Below, one piece after another: positions 52,496 to 57,698 of a stretch of 64,000 nucleotides of DNA (the stretch's first letter is position 1; the number at the start of each line of letters is the position of its first letter). A program made the position numbers and the translations under genes. The notes under the pieces were generated by a model. The model saw only the letters and a list, made by a program, of their open reading frames with translations, had not been told where the DNA came from and ran no database searches. Source of the stretch: Labilibaculum sp. (GTDB lineage: Bacteria; Bacteroidota; Bacteroidia; Bacteroidales; Marinifilaceae); contig NZ_OY761461.1 in NCBI RefSeq assembly GCF_963664555.1, positions 1,612,001 to 1,676,000 on the forward strand, in the 5' to 3' direction.

Positions 52496-53668
52496 TTATT
52501 TTTCCGCTTTTGTCATAAAAATCACACTTATTCCTCCAAGAACAAAGAAGATTGCTCCAGCGAGTATCAAGGCTGATGAAATACTGAAATGGTCAGTGTA
52601 CCAGCCTAAAAACGGACCAATAATAGCAAAACAAATTCGAATAATAAAATTCCTGACAGAGAGCACCGTTGCTCTCATGTCCGATTCGGTAATTTGGTTG
52701 ATGTAATTTTTTAAAATAGGAGTGGCAATTCCCCGTACAAAATAGAAAAAGAAAAGGACACCAACCCCAATCAATGAATTGAACCATCCTGTCAGCATAA
52801 AGCCTCCCGAGATTCCAATAACGATAAAAATAGAAGTCCCTGTTTTTCCAAGATATTCCTCAGCTTTATGTGCTGAAAGGGCTGTAATTCCTACGGTTAG
52901 GTTCAAAAGAGTCCAGATTACTCCAATGGTGCTTACTTCCATGTTTAAATCCCGAAGATAGGGTTGAATAAACCAGGCAAGTGTGAGTGTTGCACATCCA
53001 ATAACAGATGAAAAAACAATATTCCAGCGTAATTTGGCATTGTCCCAAAGAGAGAATTTTACAATGCCCAGAATATGATTGAATCCAACTTTTAATTTTA
53101 TTGAATTCTGATTTGGATCTACTAGTAAGATGGAGGCTGGAATTGCAATGAATGCAATGAAGGACTGAAAAATGAAGGGAGTCCTGAGACTAATTAGAGC
53201 CAAACTGCCACCGGCAATACCAGCCAGAGCTTCGGCAAAATTCCCAACCGACATTACTCTGCTTTCCTGTTTTAGATATTCTTTCTCTCTATTCATTTTA
53301 AGCAGGCTATCGTATAGCATGGCAGAATCGGAACCTGATATAAAGCTGCTGCCAATTCCCAATATCAATTCAGCAATTAAAAAGCCGTTAAAGCCTGAGC
53401 TAAACGAGTAGACTACAAAGCCCAAACAGCCTAGAATCGAACCTAAAATCAAAGACTTTTTTCGGCCCCAAACATCAGCAATATATCCCGATGGAATTTC
53501 CAGAGCAACTACTGCTACTGAATAAATTCCCTTAAGGGTTAGTACATTCTGCATACTCAAACCATTCTCCTGATAAAAGAGAACAATAATGGGCATGGTG
53601 AGCATGAACCACTTGGCAATTTTAATCAAATACAGTTTTGGGATATTTCCGGAAATAGATCTTGTCAT
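52496..53668 (-). CDS. Major facilitator superfamily transporter
   Basis: 390 residues, about twelve TM helices. The MFS A-like motif is GYIADVWGRKKSLILG at the 2-3 loop. A central loop (LVDPNQNSIKLKVGFNH) separates the halves. Single gene, convergent with the MBL gene. A -7 box (TATCTTTG, minus strand 53693-53686) lies 18 bp before the start. The substrate is not evident; drug or solute efflux are both possible. Confidence 0.85.
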   Translation of the reverse strand: MTRSISGNIPKLYLIKIAKWFMLTMPIIVLFYQENGLSMQNVLTLKGIYSVAVVALEIPSGYIADVWGRKKSLILGSILGCLGFVVYSFSSGFNGFLIAELILGIGSSFISGSDSAMLYDSLLKMNREKEYLKQESRVMSVGNFAEALAGIAGGSLALISLRTPFIFQSFIAFIAIPASILLVDPNQNSIKLKVGFNHILGIVKFSLWDNAKLRWNIVFSSVIGCATLTLAWFIQPYLRDLNMEVSTIGVIWTLLNLTVGITALSAHKAEEYLGKTGTSIFIVIGISGGFMLTGWFNSLIGVGVLFFFYFVRGIATPILKNYINQITESDMRATVLSVRNFIIRICFAIIGPFLGWYTDHFSISSALILAGAIFFVLGGISVIFMTKAEK

Positions 53669-53976: not shown

Positions 53977-55785
53977 ATGGGAATGACATTAATCGAGAAG
54001 ATCTTGGCAAATCACTCCAAAGAGAGTGTTGTAAAGCCTGGCGATATTATTGATGTTGAGATTGACATTCGTGCCGCCCGGGATTTTGGGGGAGCGAATG
54101 TGGTTAAAAATATTCAGGAGCATAACTTGAAGATTGCCGATCCAAAAAAAACTTATTTTACTTTTGATTGTAATCCTACAGGGTCAGATCAGAAATATGC
54201 AGTAAATCAGCAAATATGTCGGTTGTTTGCGCGGGATAATGGCGTGAAAGTATTTGATATCAATACAGGTATTGGAACGCATACCTTAATTGAACAAGGT
54301 CTCGCTTATTCGGGAATTACTGCTGTAACTACAGATTCTCATGCCAATATTTTGGGGGCTGTCGGCGCATTCGGGCAAGGTATGGGCGATAAGGACATTG
54401 CTGTTGCCATTCATAAGGGAAAAGTTTGGTTCAAAGTCCCTAAATCAGTTAAAATAAATTTAAATGGAAAGCGGCCGGAGGGAATTTATGCCAAGGATAT
54501 TGTTTTGGGATTATTGAATCAGTTTGGAGCGAATTCTCTTCTTGGATATGCTGTGGAGATTTATGGCGGGGAAGTAGATCACTTCACTCTTGATGAAAGA
54601 ATCACAATTTCATCCATGGCTACAGAAATGGGATGTATCATCATTTTGTTTACTCCCAATGATGCCATTATGGAATACAGTCAATTTCGAAATGGAAGGG
54701 AGTTTGATGTAGTGAAAGCTGACCTTGATGCCGAATACGATCAGGTGTTTGAAATAGATTTGGAAGAGTTTGTTCCCCGGGCTTCTTTGCCGGGAGAACC
54801 TCACAACACTGTTCCGGTTAGCAAAGTCAGAGGAGTGAAAATAGACTCGGCCTTTATTGGAAGCTGTACCAATGGACGAATGGAAGATTTTCGGGTTGTG
54901 GCGGATATCCTAAAAGGGAAAAAAGTAGCTCCTGGTGTCGTTTTTAAGATCGTTCCCGCGACCGATGAAATTTGGAATGAATGTTTAAAAGAAGGCTTGA
55001 TTAATATTTTTAAAGAAGCCGGAGCCATGGTTTCCAATGCTGGTTGCGCAGGTTGTGCTGCCGGTCAGGTAGGACAGAATGGTGAAGGAGAGGTAACCAT
55101 TAGCACCGGGAACAGAAATTTTCCAGGCAAGCAGGGAAAAGGAAAGGTGTATTTGGCATCACCAGCTACAGTAGTTGCTTCTGCAATTGCCGGTTGCATT
55201 ATTCCGCACGATGAAATACCAGAGCATCCCGTAACATTTGGTCCCCGAAAAGAAAAAGAAGTGGGTACAATGCTTCATTCAAGTTCTGAGGTGTTGATTA
55301 GACCTAAGAGAATTGAAGGGCGTGCTTGGTACATTCCCATGGATAATATCGATACAGATATGATTTATCACAATCGATATCTTTCTATTACTGATATGGA
55401 TGAAATGGGACAGTATACTTTTGATAATCTGGAAGGATACGAAGATTTTGCACAAAAAGCCAAGTCGGGCGATATTGTGATTGCACACAAAAACTTTGGA
55501 AGTGGCAGTTCCCGGCAACAGGCAGTTGATTGTTTCAAAGCATTGGGAATACAAGGCATTCTTGCAGAATCTTACGGAGCAATCTACGAGAGGAATGCCA
55601 TTAATGCAGCTTTTCCAATTATGACTTGCGTTGATATTTCAAAACTAAACCTAGCTGATGGTGATACAATTCTTTTGGATTTAGAGACGGGCAAAATCAC
55701 CAATACAACTAAAAATATCTCGGTGCAGGGAGAACGTTTCTCTGAAGTTCAACTGGAAATTTACCAAAACGGAGGACTCTTTTAA
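53977..55785 (+). CDS. Fused aconitase-superfamily dehydratase (LeuC-LeuD type), copy 1
   Basis: 602 residues from the ATG at 53977 (a GTG at 53923 and ATG at 53983 are alternatives). Residues about 1-410 are the LeuC-like large subunit with iron-sulfur cysteines in FIGSCTNGRMEDF and NAGCAGCAAGQVG; residues about 430-600 are the LeuD-like swivelling domain (WYIPMDNIDTDMIYHNRYL, NFGSGSSRQQAVDCF). In most bacteria these are two proteins. Substrate could be 3-isopropylmalate, citramalate, homocitrate or another 2-/3-hydroxyacid. There are no leuA or leuB genes nearby. The arginine of GSSRQQ is kept. The next gene encodes a paralog of the same architecture. Confidence 0.85.
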   Translation: MGMTLIEKILANHSKESVVKPGDIIDVEIDIRAARDFGGANVVKNIQEHNLKIADPKKTYFTFDCNPTGSDQKYAVNQQICRLFARDNGVKVFDINTGIGTHTLIEQGLAYSGITAVTTDSHANILGAVGAFGQGMGDKDIAVAIHKGKVWFKVPKSVKINLNGKRPEGIYAKDIVLGLLNQFGANSLLGYAVEIYGGEVDHFTLDERITISSMATEMGCIIILFTPNDAIMEYSQFRNGREFDVVKADLDAEYDQVFEIDLEEFVPRASLPGEPHNTVPVSKVRGVKIDSAFIGSCTNGRMEDFRVVADILKGKKVAPGVVFKIVPATDEIWNECLKEGLINIFKEAGAMVSNAGCAGCAAGQVGQNGEGEVTISTGNRNFPGKQGKGKVYLASPATVVASAIAGCIIPHDEIPEHPVTFGPRKEKEVGTMLHSSSEVLIRPKRIEGRAWYIPMDNIDTDMIYHNRYLSITDMDEMGQYTFDNLEGYEDFAQKAKSGDIVIAHKNFGSGSSRQQAVDCFKALGIQGILAESYGAIYERNAINAAFPIMTCVDISKLNLADGDTILLDLETGKITNTTKNISVQGERFSEVQLEIYQNGGLF

Positions 55786-55916
55786 ATGGTTAACCGCAAA
55801 GGTAAACGAAAGATAACACGAAGTCACACAAAGTGAAAATTAGGAGACTCTTTGTGCTACTTTGTGCAGTAATTTGAGTTTAAGATTAGTTATTGGTTAA
55901 AAAATACGTTAGCACT

Positions 55917-57698
55917 ATGCAAAACCTAACTTTCGTTGAAAAGGTATTTCGGGCAAAATGTGGAAGCATTGTTTTCAAAATTCCCGATATTGTTCTGACT
56001 CATGACAATACGGCCAGTATCAAAATTACATTTGAAAAAATGGGGGGCGGTCAAGTGAAAAATCCTGATCAGCTTCTGGTCGTTCTCGATCACAATGCAC
56101 CGCCAACCAATGCCAAGTTGGCTACCGATTATCAGAGGGTTCGTGAATTGGTTCAGAAACAAGGAATCAAGAAGTTTTATGATGCAGGCTCAGGCATATG
56201 TCATCAAATCATGTCGTACCATGCCAAACCTGGAATGATAATCGTAGGCAGCGACAGTCATACATGCACTGCCGGCGCATTCAATGCTTTAGCTGCCGGT
56301 ATCGATCGCACGGAAGCTGCCGGATTATGGAAACGGGGAGAAACATGGTTTCGGGTGCCCGAATCCATTAAAATTATTCTAAATGGGAAGTTGCCGGAAG
56401 GTGTTTTTGCCAAAGATCTTTCTTTGTGGATTATCGGAATGATAGGTTCGGCGGGAGCCAACTATATGTCTATTGAATATCATGGTGAGGGAGTGAAAAG
56501 TCTTTCTATTTCTGATCGCATGACATTGGCAAATTTGGCTTCCGAAATGGGCGCTAAGAATGCTGTTTTTCCTCCCGATAAAGTGTTGGAAGATTTTTAT
56601 GAACAAAAGGTAAAAGGCATTTGGGCCGATGAAGATGCCCAATATTTTAAAGAATACGAAATTAATTTAAGCGATTTAGTTCCATTGGTAGCAGCTCCGC
56701 ATCATGTGGATAATGTAAAAACCATATCGGAAGTTAAAGGAGTAAAGTTAAATCAAGGATTAATAGGAACCTGTACGAACGGACGATTGGAGGATTTGCG
56801 GATTGCAGCCAGAATATTGGATGGCAAGCAAGTTGTTCCTGGTTTTCAGTTGTTGGTGGCTCCCGCTTCCAAAGAAATATATTTGGATGCGATTAAAGAG
56901 GGAATTATCACCAAATTGATGAAAGCCGGAGCTGCTATTTTGGGTTCTTCCTGCGGACCTTGTTTGGGAACCGGACAAGGAATTCCTGCCGATGGATTTA
57001 CCGTGATTTCAACCGCGAACAGAAATTTTTTAGGTAGAATGGGCAATAAAAATGCTCAAATATATCTTGCTTCTCCCGCTGCAGTAGCCTGTTCAGCTCT
57101 CACTGGTGAAATAACAGATCCAAGAATAAATATTTCCCGGCAAATCGAATTTCCATTTCAAAAACAGCAGAGTCGAACAATCCTAATTCAAGAATCGGAC
57201 AATCGAAAATCAAATGGAGTTTGGGATTACTCCGATGTTGATCATTTGAATACCGACCAAATGTTTGCAGGAAACTTAACCTACGAGGTTTTGAGTTCCG
57301 ATCCGGATGGAATTCGGCCACATTTGTTCAAAGGATTTGATGATTCTTTTGCTGATGGAGTAGAGGAAGGTGATATTTTGATTGCCGGAGAAAATTTTGG
57401 TTGCGGCAGTTCAAGAGAACATCCTTCAGTTGGATTGGCTCATGCAGGAGTACGTGCGGTGATCGTAAAATCGGTAAACCGGATCTTTTACAGGTCGGCA
57501 ATTAATCAGGGTTTATTACTCATTGTGAACCGCGAAATTGTTGAATCATACCATAGAAATGACGTGCTTGTGCTTGATTTTCAGGAGGGAGTCGTTCATG
57601 TTGGCGAAAAACGATTCGAAATACCGGTTTTACCCGATAAATTACAACAGATAATAAAATGCAAAGGCCTCGTAAACTGGATAAGAACTGTGATATAA
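55917..57698 (+). CDS. Fused aconitase-superfamily dehydratase (LeuC-LeuD type), copy 2
   Basis: 593 residues from the ATG at 55917 (an upstream TTG is less likely). LeuC-like part with cluster cysteines in LIGTCTNGRLEDLR and GSSCGPCLGTGQG; LeuD-like part with VDHLNTDQMFAGNL and NFGCGSSREHPSVGL. It is clearly diverged from copy 1 (its CxxC is SCGPC, against GCAGC), so the two probably act on different substrates or in successive steps. The 130 bp between them contains repeats of an AACCGCAAAGG / ACACAAAGTG kind common between Bacteroidetes genes. No terminator separates the two genes clearly. Confidence 0.85.
   Translation: MQNLTFVEKVFRAKCGSIVFKIPDIVLTHDNTASIKITFEKMGGGQVKNPDQLLVVLDHNAPPTNAKLATDYQRVRELVQKQGIKKFYDAGSGICHQIMSYHAKPGMIIVGSDSHTCTAGAFNALAAGIDRTEAAGLWKRGETWFRVPESIKIILNGKLPEGVFAKDLSLWIIGMIGSAGANYMSIEYHGEGVKSLSISDRMTLANLASEMGAKNAVFPPDKVLEDFYEQKVKGIWADEDAQYFKEYEINLSDLVPLVAAPHHVDNVKTISEVKGVKLNQGLIGTCTNGRLEDLRIAARILDGKQVVPGFQLLVAPASKEIYLDAIKEGIITKLMKAGAAILGSSCGPCLGTGQGIPADGFTVISTANRNFLGRMGNKNAQIYLASPAAVACSALTGEITDPRINISRQIEFPFQKQQSRTILIQESDNRKSNGVWDYSDVDHLNTDQMFAGNLTYEVLSSDPDGIRPHLFKGFDDSFADGVEEGDILIAGENFGCGSSREHPSVGLAHAGVRAVIVKSVNRIFYRSAINQGLLLIVNREIVESYHRNDVLVLDFQEGVVHVGEKRFEIPVLPDKLQQIIKCKGLVNWIRTVI

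Follow-up and report, generated by a model that had tools for sequence, protein, structure and literature searches.

Homoaconitase is known from methanogens and from Thermus and Deinococcus, under the names HacAB and LysT-LysU. For fungi, passages of Fazius 2012 (PMC3556520) report that the homoaconitases tested interconvert homoaconitate and homoisocitrate only, and that the conversion of homocitrate to homoaconitate is carried out by aconitases from fungi and Thermus. The DNA considered here, referred to as the window, is a stretch of 64,000 nucleotides from Labilibaculum sp. (contig NZ_OY761461.1, positions 1,612,001 to 1,676,000 of the forward strand). It encodes, in tandem and in the same direction, two aconitase-type dehydratases in which the large and small subunits are fused, with 131 nucleotides between them; these are proteins A and B of this study:

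53977..55785, + strand: protein A, fused aconitase-type dehydratase of the GCAGC type (ATG at 53977, stop at 55785, 602 aa)
55917..57698, + strand: protein B, fused aconitase-type dehydratase of the SCGPC type (593 aa from ATG 55917)

The original prediction, of two dehydratases of the same build with different cluster motifs (GCAGC and SCGPC), is borne out: both open reading frames are present, both match the Pfam Aconitase and Aconitase_C domains above the gathering score, and they share ∼30% identity. Comparison with relatives favours ATG 55917 as the start of B over the listed TTG at 55893.

From the observed protein families, shared inheritance and gene clusters we infer a substrate, a direction and a half-reaction for each protein. 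It is somewhat probable, on this basis, that A and B are two dedicated homoaconitase-type hydro-lyases of a catabolic, backwards-running α-aminoadipate route of lysine breakdown. In such a route lysine-ketoglutarate reductase (LKR) would join lysine and 2-oxoglutarate to form saccharopine, which saccharopine dehydrogenase (SDH) would split into glutamate and aminoadipate semialdehyde; an antiquitin-type dehydrogenase would oxidise the semialdehyde to 2-aminoadipate, and this would be transaminated to 2-oxoadipate. A homoisocitrate dehydrogenase relative, here called DH3, would carboxylate 2-oxoadipate with CO2 to give homoisocitrate. B would then convert homoisocitrate to cis-homoaconitate, A would hydrate this to homocitrate, and a citrate lyase relative (a fused CitDE plus CitF), acting as a homocitrate lyase, would release acetate and 2-oxoglutarate. 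The sum, on paper, would be lysine + CO2 + 2-oxoglutarate → acetate + 2 glutamate, which is redox-neutral and would suit an anaerobe. By the established stoichiometries of these enzyme types, two reducing equivalents are used and two are made.

A pair of aconitase-type proteins makes sense in this setting because the fungal homoaconitases tested, according to the same passages of PMC3556520, perform one half only. The active site of B is canonical; A keeps its cluster ligands and lacks the histidine of domain 1. Given this canonical site in B and the altered residues in A, we would give B the step between homoaconitate and homoisocitrate, and A the step at homocitrate. The wider claim, which we regard as evenly balanced, is that an undescribed anaerobic lysine fermentation, proceeding by way of a carboxylation and ending in a homocitrate lyase, is common to Marinilabiliales/Bacteroidales, Cloacimonadota and Delongbacteria, and that A represents a novel catalytic form of the aconitase fold, hydrating homoaconitate although it lacks the classical Asp-His pair. 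The protein families themselves are known; what would be new is their use in this route and the altered active site of A. Among the papers listed by full-text literature searches, which had subscription papers and preprints outside their scope, none concerned a homocitrate lyase or an aminoadipate route run in reverse; for homocitrate lyase as an enzyme activity, 5.39 million papers gave no match.

Shared inheritance and gene clusters

The company kept by A was followed through 119 genomes from 118 families of one order, evenly drawn and not independent of each other by descent. A, counted at ≥60% identity, is present in 51 genomes and B in 45, B being counted as second matches at 31–36% identity with E ≤ 1e-60, a rule that missed some copies (e.g. 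in G072). Both occur in 43 genomes, often on different contigs, so that B accompanies A in 43 of the 51 A genomes (44 with the later-found copy of G072) as against 2 of the 68 without A. DH3 was taken from the PF00180 matches listed, by score band and frame length, with tblastn in agreement at the fetched loci; its figures are lower bounds, at least 45/51 against 0/68. The CitF-like lyase, counted at ≥67% identity (G015 and G082, at 42%, left out), is found in 49 A genomes and in 2 of the others, LKR in 47/51 and 20/68, and an antiquitin-type dehydrogenase over the cut-off in 23/51 and 7/68. Among the controls, citrate synthase is present in 34/51 and 31/68, mitochondrial-type aconitase in at least 30/51 and at least 28/68, and leuC in at least 11/51 and at least 36/68, A being commoner where leuC is absent. 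The last two were assigned by score and frame length among the matches listed, AcnA-size frames being left out. G082, not counted for A, holds a more distant set (A at 38% identity, CitF relative at 42%, two LKR copies).

Twelve genomes have A, B and the lyase with no citrate synthase, leuC or mitochondrial-type aconitase among the matches listed; DH3 is present in all twelve and LKR in eleven. Five of them (G051, G065, G083, G089 and G097) list two aconitase-family candidates only, and there A and B appear to be the sole members of the family. In eight of the twelve there is no PF00682 match above 66 bits, and G114, G098, G090 and G026 reach 89–143 bits; the corresponding scores in the Labilibaculum genome are 315 (LeuA-type), 235 (NifV-like) and 165 (CimA-like). 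At least eight reduced genomes thus show no synthase to feed the biosynthetic direction, and in these the route is seemingly unfed by the usual isopropylmalate, citramalate or homocitrate synthase or by citrate synthase.

A scan of named genomes found A relatives in at least 561 stretches, among at least 586, not all necessarily orthologues. In the best 80 loci, which were kept, clustering places B in 36, a small HDIG-domain protein in 19, DH3 in 16, a CitF relative in 7 and LKR in 4, many contigs ending early. Neighbour analysis puts DH3 (∼398 aa) and the HDIG protein beside A. A cluster of the form CitDE-CitF-DH3-HDIG-A(-B) is seen in Cloacimonadota (L131, L136, L153, L165, L170), in Delongbacteria (L164) and in Marinilabiliaceae JC017 (L157), and extends to LKR in L131, L136, L153, L157 and L170, to SDH in L136, L157 and L170, and to the antiquitin-type dehydrogenase in L157. 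The order in L136 and L170 is SDH - LKR - CitDE - CitF - DH3 - HDIG - A - B (CitDE and HDIG of L170 by tblastn only), and that in L157 is CitDE - CitF - DH3 - HDIG - A - B - aldehyde dehydrogenase - LKR - SDH. L131 begins with LKR and lacks SDH, L153 opens on a fragment of LKR and carries an additional CitF, and in L164 CitDE comes first, at the end of the contig. In G072 B, dehydrogenase, LKR and SDH stand in a row, with CitDE-CitF-DH3 together elsewhere, and G073 reads LKR - SDH - arginine-deiminase-like - A. Representative members of the clusters were confirmed by Pfam, NCBIfam and solved-structure searches.

It had also been suggested that the two enzymes might have one biosynthetic and one catabolic role, or act on different hydroxyacids. 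A catabolic role is possible; the split into opposite roles finds no support, A and B occurring together in 43 of 51 genomes and in one cluster in other phyla. The idea of different hydroxyacids comes closer, yet the evidence speaks more for a single isomerisation (homocitrate/homoaconitate/homoisocitrate) within one pathway, each protein taking one half-reaction.

Some details of these loci are recorded as seen. The B gene of G072 (L260:1616-3559) matches in two pieces separated by ∼180 bases, which looks like an insertion; the gene between SDH and A in G073 (L077:5920-7176) was judged arginine-deiminase-like by eye; and two CitF-like genes stand in a row beside one CitDE at L226:5364-9048 and L153:2585-5829. 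The HDIG protein (L220:6969-7523, L157:9275-9826) accompanies DH3, and often A, in many genomes, and in the copies viewed the His of its HD pair reads Ala (ILADVGK).

The partner enzymes match the families that the route would need. LKR matches the α-aminoadipic semialdehyde synthase entry 8dda, which represents the LKR part of that enzyme, with E values of 3e-77 (L136) and 2e-38 (Labilibaculum). SDH of L157 matches the α-aminoadipic semialdehyde synthase entry 5l78 (1e-64) and saccharopine dehydrogenase 2axq (1e-60), and the Labilibaculum antiquitin-type dehydrogenase scores 798 against a cut-off of 730 with the NCBIfam model of L-piperidine-6-carboxylate dehydrogenase, besides matching antiquitin. 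The A-linked lyase has CitD, CitE and CitF domains, CitD and CitE being fused and CitF separate, and its CitF proteins form a set of their own, 67–84% identical to the L157 copy as against 40–42% for other CitF-like matches. With the citF equivalog TIGR01584 (cut-off 501.45) the L157 copy scores 531 and the A-linked-type copy of Labilibaculum, 78% identical to it, 496.7. The lyase genes of Labilibaculum, G097 and G007 lie near genes of the methylmalonyl-CoA-decarboxylase/carboxyltransferase type (families by eye in G097 and G007), which is compatible with onward conversion of 2-oxoglutarate to propionate.

The two proteins and their genome

The Asp-His pair and the cluster ligands were located by alignment, and the motif counts below refer to 97 distinct A relatives and 64 distinct B relatives, after removal of four duplicates of A and one of B. 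The features in the window, all on the + strand, are:

54169..54171, +: Cys65 of A, at the position of the His in the catalytic Asp-His pair (from alignment)
54865..54867, +: Cys297 of A, first cluster ligand (GSCTNGR)
55045..55056, +: Cys357 and Cys360 of A, the other two cluster ligands (GCAGC)
55312..55782, +: small-subunit (LeuD/HacB-like) domain of A, residues 446-602
56088..56093, +: Asp57-His58, catalytic pair of B (numbered from 55920)
56772..56774, +: Cys285 of B, first cluster ligand (GTCTNGR)
56952..56963, +: Cys345 and Cys348 of B, the other two cluster ligands (SCGPC)
57195..57695, +: small-subunit domain of B

The domain-1 histidine of A is replaced throughout its relatives, by Cys in 63, Thr in 33 and Val in 1, with His in none, whereas the Asp-His pair is kept in B, in all 64 B relatives (as LDHNA) and in 12/12 reference proteins. 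The three cysteines of the [4Fe-4S] cluster are present in 97/97 A relatives, as is GCAGC; among the B relatives the first cluster motif is found in 61/64 and SCGPC in 58/64, five of the 64 being fragments shorter than 500 aa. The GCAGC and SCGPC motifs are not chance. In the small domain, A has GSSRQ (97/97) and AIYER (90/97), the counterparts in the LeuD-type references being GSSRE and RIFYR or RIFFR. At the place of YLR, the substrate-loop motif of the M. jannaschii small subunit, A reads RYL and then S, A, T or Q, and B mostly GNLTY. The substrate loop of B is three letters longer in the alignment, as in the Deinococcus homoaconitase, the LeuD-type proteins having no such insertion.

Family models place both proteins in the broad NCBIfam subfamilies ‘aconitase/3-isopropylmalate dehydratase’ and ‘homoaconitate hydratase’, with no equivalog passed. 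The broad homoaconitate hydratase subfamily model TIGR01343 (cut-off 386) is passed by A (393) and B (483), and the leucine equivalogs TIGR00170/TIGR02083 (cut-offs 560/611) are not reached (A 199/350, B 193/395). The reference set comprised 12 proteins: ten of LeuC/HacA type, the Labilibaculum LeuC and the Labilibaculum aconitase. The nearest of the 12 to B is the solved M. jannaschii homoaconitase large subunit, at 46% over the large part compared, and that to A is Monoglobus LeuC+LeuD, at 38% at best; B is 37% identical to the Deinococcus lysine-operon protein. In a phylogeny with these references, A and B each form one fully supported clade, A on a long branch, and their placement is unstable. 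The branches joining A, B and the references are weak, mostly 21–68% in IQ-TREE, which sets B beside aconitase (68%); FastTree sets A beside the Labilibaculum LeuC (0.89) and B beside aconitase (0.91). We draw no placement of either protein, given the weak joining branches, the long branch of A and the disagreement between the two programs.

The Labilibaculum genome (4.97 Mb, a single contig) has a citrate synthase gene beside that of a canonical, mitochondrial-type aconitase, an 855-aa frame of AcnB-like size with aconitase-family matches, and, at 4.066-4.072 Mb, LeuA-, LeuC-, LeuD-, citramalate-synthase-like and LeuB-type genes together. Its LeuC is confirmed by the leuC equivalog (645 bits, cut-off 560), and the other leu genes by family and position. 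With LeuCD and a canonical aconitase thus present elsewhere, A and B are additional. The second synthase of the leu cluster (L089, 4067569-4068372) has its best match in the model for the citramalate synthase of Leptospira (655 bits, cut-off 950). At 4.236 Mb a NifV-like homocitrate synthase (L088; 426 bits, cut-off 463) lies beside a frame that, judged by eye, resembles NifB; the organism is possibly a nitrogen fixer and would then make homocitrate for a different use. A separate citrate-lyase operon (CitE, CitF, CitX-CitG, CitC) has a CitF 40% identical to that of L157.

The window holds no lysine-pathway genes around A and B, and their context of lysine-degrading genes is that of other genomes. 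In Labilibaculum the pathway genes are scattered (LKR at 1.141 Mb, antiquitin-type dehydrogenase at 0.042 Mb, DH3 with HDIG at 3.838 Mb, CitDE with CitF at 3.928-3.931 Mb), so that the operon logic rests on other species. The neighbours of A and B in the window were dropped as pathway clues, since neighbours differ between genomes. A divergent MFS transporter gene (window 52496-53668, − strand) adjoins A in six Labilibaculum-like loci and in G007, and is one frame off in G097; its product could carry a substrate or product. The copy of A in L. euxinus A4 (NCBI order Marinilabiliales, family Marinifilaceae) is 98% identical to A.

Weighing of the proposed route

Several observations weigh against the lysine-degrading route. 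The homoaconitase equivalogs NF040615/TIGR00139 (cut-offs 550/530) are not reached by A (300/234) or B (407/336), the deep branches are unstable between trees, one of which joins A with the Labilibaculum LeuC, and the preference of the Labilibaculum DH3 for homoisocitrate over isocitrate dehydrogenase models is modest (255 against 218 bits). DH3 is the only PF00180 match besides LeuB in that genome and might serve there as isocitrate dehydrogenase. The acyl-carrier motif of the Labilibaculum CitDE (L219:10011-11234, 3.930 Mb) is KGDC, where 18 of 19 distinct copies have RSDC; the serine is possibly lost, or another residue may do its work. No SDH was found in ∼0.37 Mb of the 4.97 Mb genome plus the window, the part searched for it, which takes in the surroundings of the pathway genes. 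LKR also occurs in 20 of the 68 genomes lacking A, and an antiquitin-type enzyme over the cut-off is missing from 28 of the 51 A genomes. In G033 and G054, B and the lyase occur with no A and no PF00180 match, and in G009 and G012, A and DH3 occur with no lyase; for these four exceptions, as for the missing antiquitin-type enzyme, the sole explanation that we offer is incomplete genomes. The argument for two enzymes is by analogy with fungi and Thermus, and homoaconitase of the methanogen type does both halves.

The main and serious rival, which we consider unlikely, has the same enzymes acting on C6 acids: DH3 would convert 2-oxoglutarate to isocitrate, A and/or B would convert isocitrate to citrate, and citrate lyase would yield acetate and oxaloacetate, in a partial reverse citric-acid cycle or a glutamate fermentation for which the lysine genes would be neighbours supplying glutamate. 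DH3, A and B, and the lyase are homologous to isocitrate dehydrogenase, aconitase and citrate lyase, and homology alone cannot separate C6 from C7 acids; CitF of L157 passes the citF model (531 against 501); and the Labilibaculum genome, like ten more of the 45 genomes with A and DH3, has citrate synthase with no other isocitrate-dehydrogenase-type PF00180 gene among the matches listed. Passages of PMC8542988, on Antarctic-lake Cloacimonadota, read a cluster of ATP citrate lyase, aconitase and isocitrate dehydrogenase genes as reverse TCA; we liken it to the A/B cluster by description only. One ordinary aconitase would suffice for such chemistry, however, and yet two divergent ones are kept together in 43/51 genomes, A persists beside a mitochondrial-type aconitase in at least 30/51, and DH3 beside a second isocitrate-dehydrogenase-type gene in at least 19/45. 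The canonical citrate-lyase operon of Labilibaculum (CitF 610, cut-off 501.45) would be a second one, and the clustered LKR, SDH and antiquitin-type genes would stay unexplained. A citric-acid-cycle role fed by citrate synthase is weakened by the 17 of 51 A genomes that show no citrate synthase.

Members of the aconitase family are known for several other hydroxyacids, and it is conceivable, if decidedly improbable, that A and B act on 2-hydroxyacids such as citramalate/citraconate/3-methylmalate, dimethylmalate or maleate/D-malate, or each on an acid of its own, as part of some unrelated route of catabolism. The distance of A from all references (38% at best) and its changed active-site residues would fit such a role; the genes that accompany the pair, those of the lyase, DH3 and lysine enzymes, fit a C7 tricarboxylate better than smaller acids.

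Biosynthesis of lysine through α-aminoadipate, with the enzymes running forward and the lyase reversed to make homocitrate, seems very improbable. Enzymes of the DH3, homoaconitase, SDH and LKR types are also those of fungal lysine synthesis, but eight of the 12 reduced genomes have no homocitrate-synthase-like PF00682 match above 66 bits, and the L157 and G072 clusters include the oxidising antiquitin-type dehydrogenase.

That A and B are ordinary LeuCD duplicates for leucine or isoleucine synthesis, as the annotation of most plasmid relatives as 3-isopropylmalate dehydratase (among the matches listed, 25 of 578 and of 605 records) and the joining of A with the Labilibaculum LeuC by FastTree (0.89) might suggest, is close to negligible: the leu cluster has a LeuC above the leuC cut-off (645 against 560) with A (199) and B (193) far below, A is commoner where leuC is absent, and no isopropylmalate- or citramalate-synthase-like match exceeds 66 bits in eight of the 12 reduced genomes. 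We therefore set a leucine or isoleucine role aside on the separate leu cluster, the model scores and the negative association with leuC. The pair had been described as standing without leucine genes; this holds for the window, which has no leuA-, citramalate-synthase- or leuB-type gene (the whole-genome PF00682 and PF00180 matches lie elsewhere), and fails for the genome. The accompanying view that these are not ordinary leucine enzymes agrees with the other LeuC/LeuD pair in the genome and with the leuC equivalogs not reached; the opposite case, both proteins inside the LeuCD clade of a genome without another such pair, is not the one found here.

Meaning and comparison with known systems

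If the proposed lysine-degrading route is correct, it would add a route of anaerobic lysine breakdown and a new enzyme activity, homocitrate lyase, and would give a likely function to several hundred relatives, within the limits on orthology given above for the scan. Neither leucine synthesis nor carbon fixation by reverse TCA should then be inferred from these genes alone, and some gene sets of uncultured phyla now read as reverse TCA would be lysine-degrading. It would also pose a sharp question of enzymology, namely how aconitase-type catalysis proceeds with the domain-1 His replaced by Cys or Thr. The route is testable, since named strains of Labilibaculum have the two genes next to each other.

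B resembles methanogen homoaconitase in its 46% identity to the M. jannaschii large subunit, both having CGPC, and the Deinococcus lysine-operon protein in the three-letter loop insertion of the small domain. Unlike the methanogen, Thermus and Deinococcus enzymes, A and B have fused large and small subunits and fail the homoaconitase equivalogs, B shares no more than 37% identity with the Deinococcus protein, and the genes around them point to lysine breakdown rather than synthesis. With LeuCD of the archaeal/Clostridial type the two share fold family and domain order, and Monoglobus LeuC+LeuD is nearest to A; in contrast to LeuCD, A is without the catalytic His, its motifs are GSSRQ and mostly AIYER in place of GSSRE and RIFYR or RIFFR, there is no leucine context, and the leuC cut-offs are missed.

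The fungal aconitase and homoaconitase, as described in passages of PMC3556520, likewise divide dehydration and hydration between two aconitase-family enzymes. There, aconitase does the first half in the biosynthetic direction, whereas A and B would be dedicated fused proteins working in the catabolic direction. The 3,5-diaminohexanoate fermentation of Fusobacterium and Cloacamonas acidaminovorans also leads from lysine to acetate, in overlapping phyla (PMC3149608, in part), but by other enzymes, and the main text of PMC3149608 contains neither ‘saccharopine’ nor ‘aminoadipate’. Citrate lyase, finally, shares its CitD, CitE and CitF domains with the A-linked lyase, which differs in its fused CitD and CitE, in a CitF belonging to a separate set, and in its proposed substrate, homocitrate.

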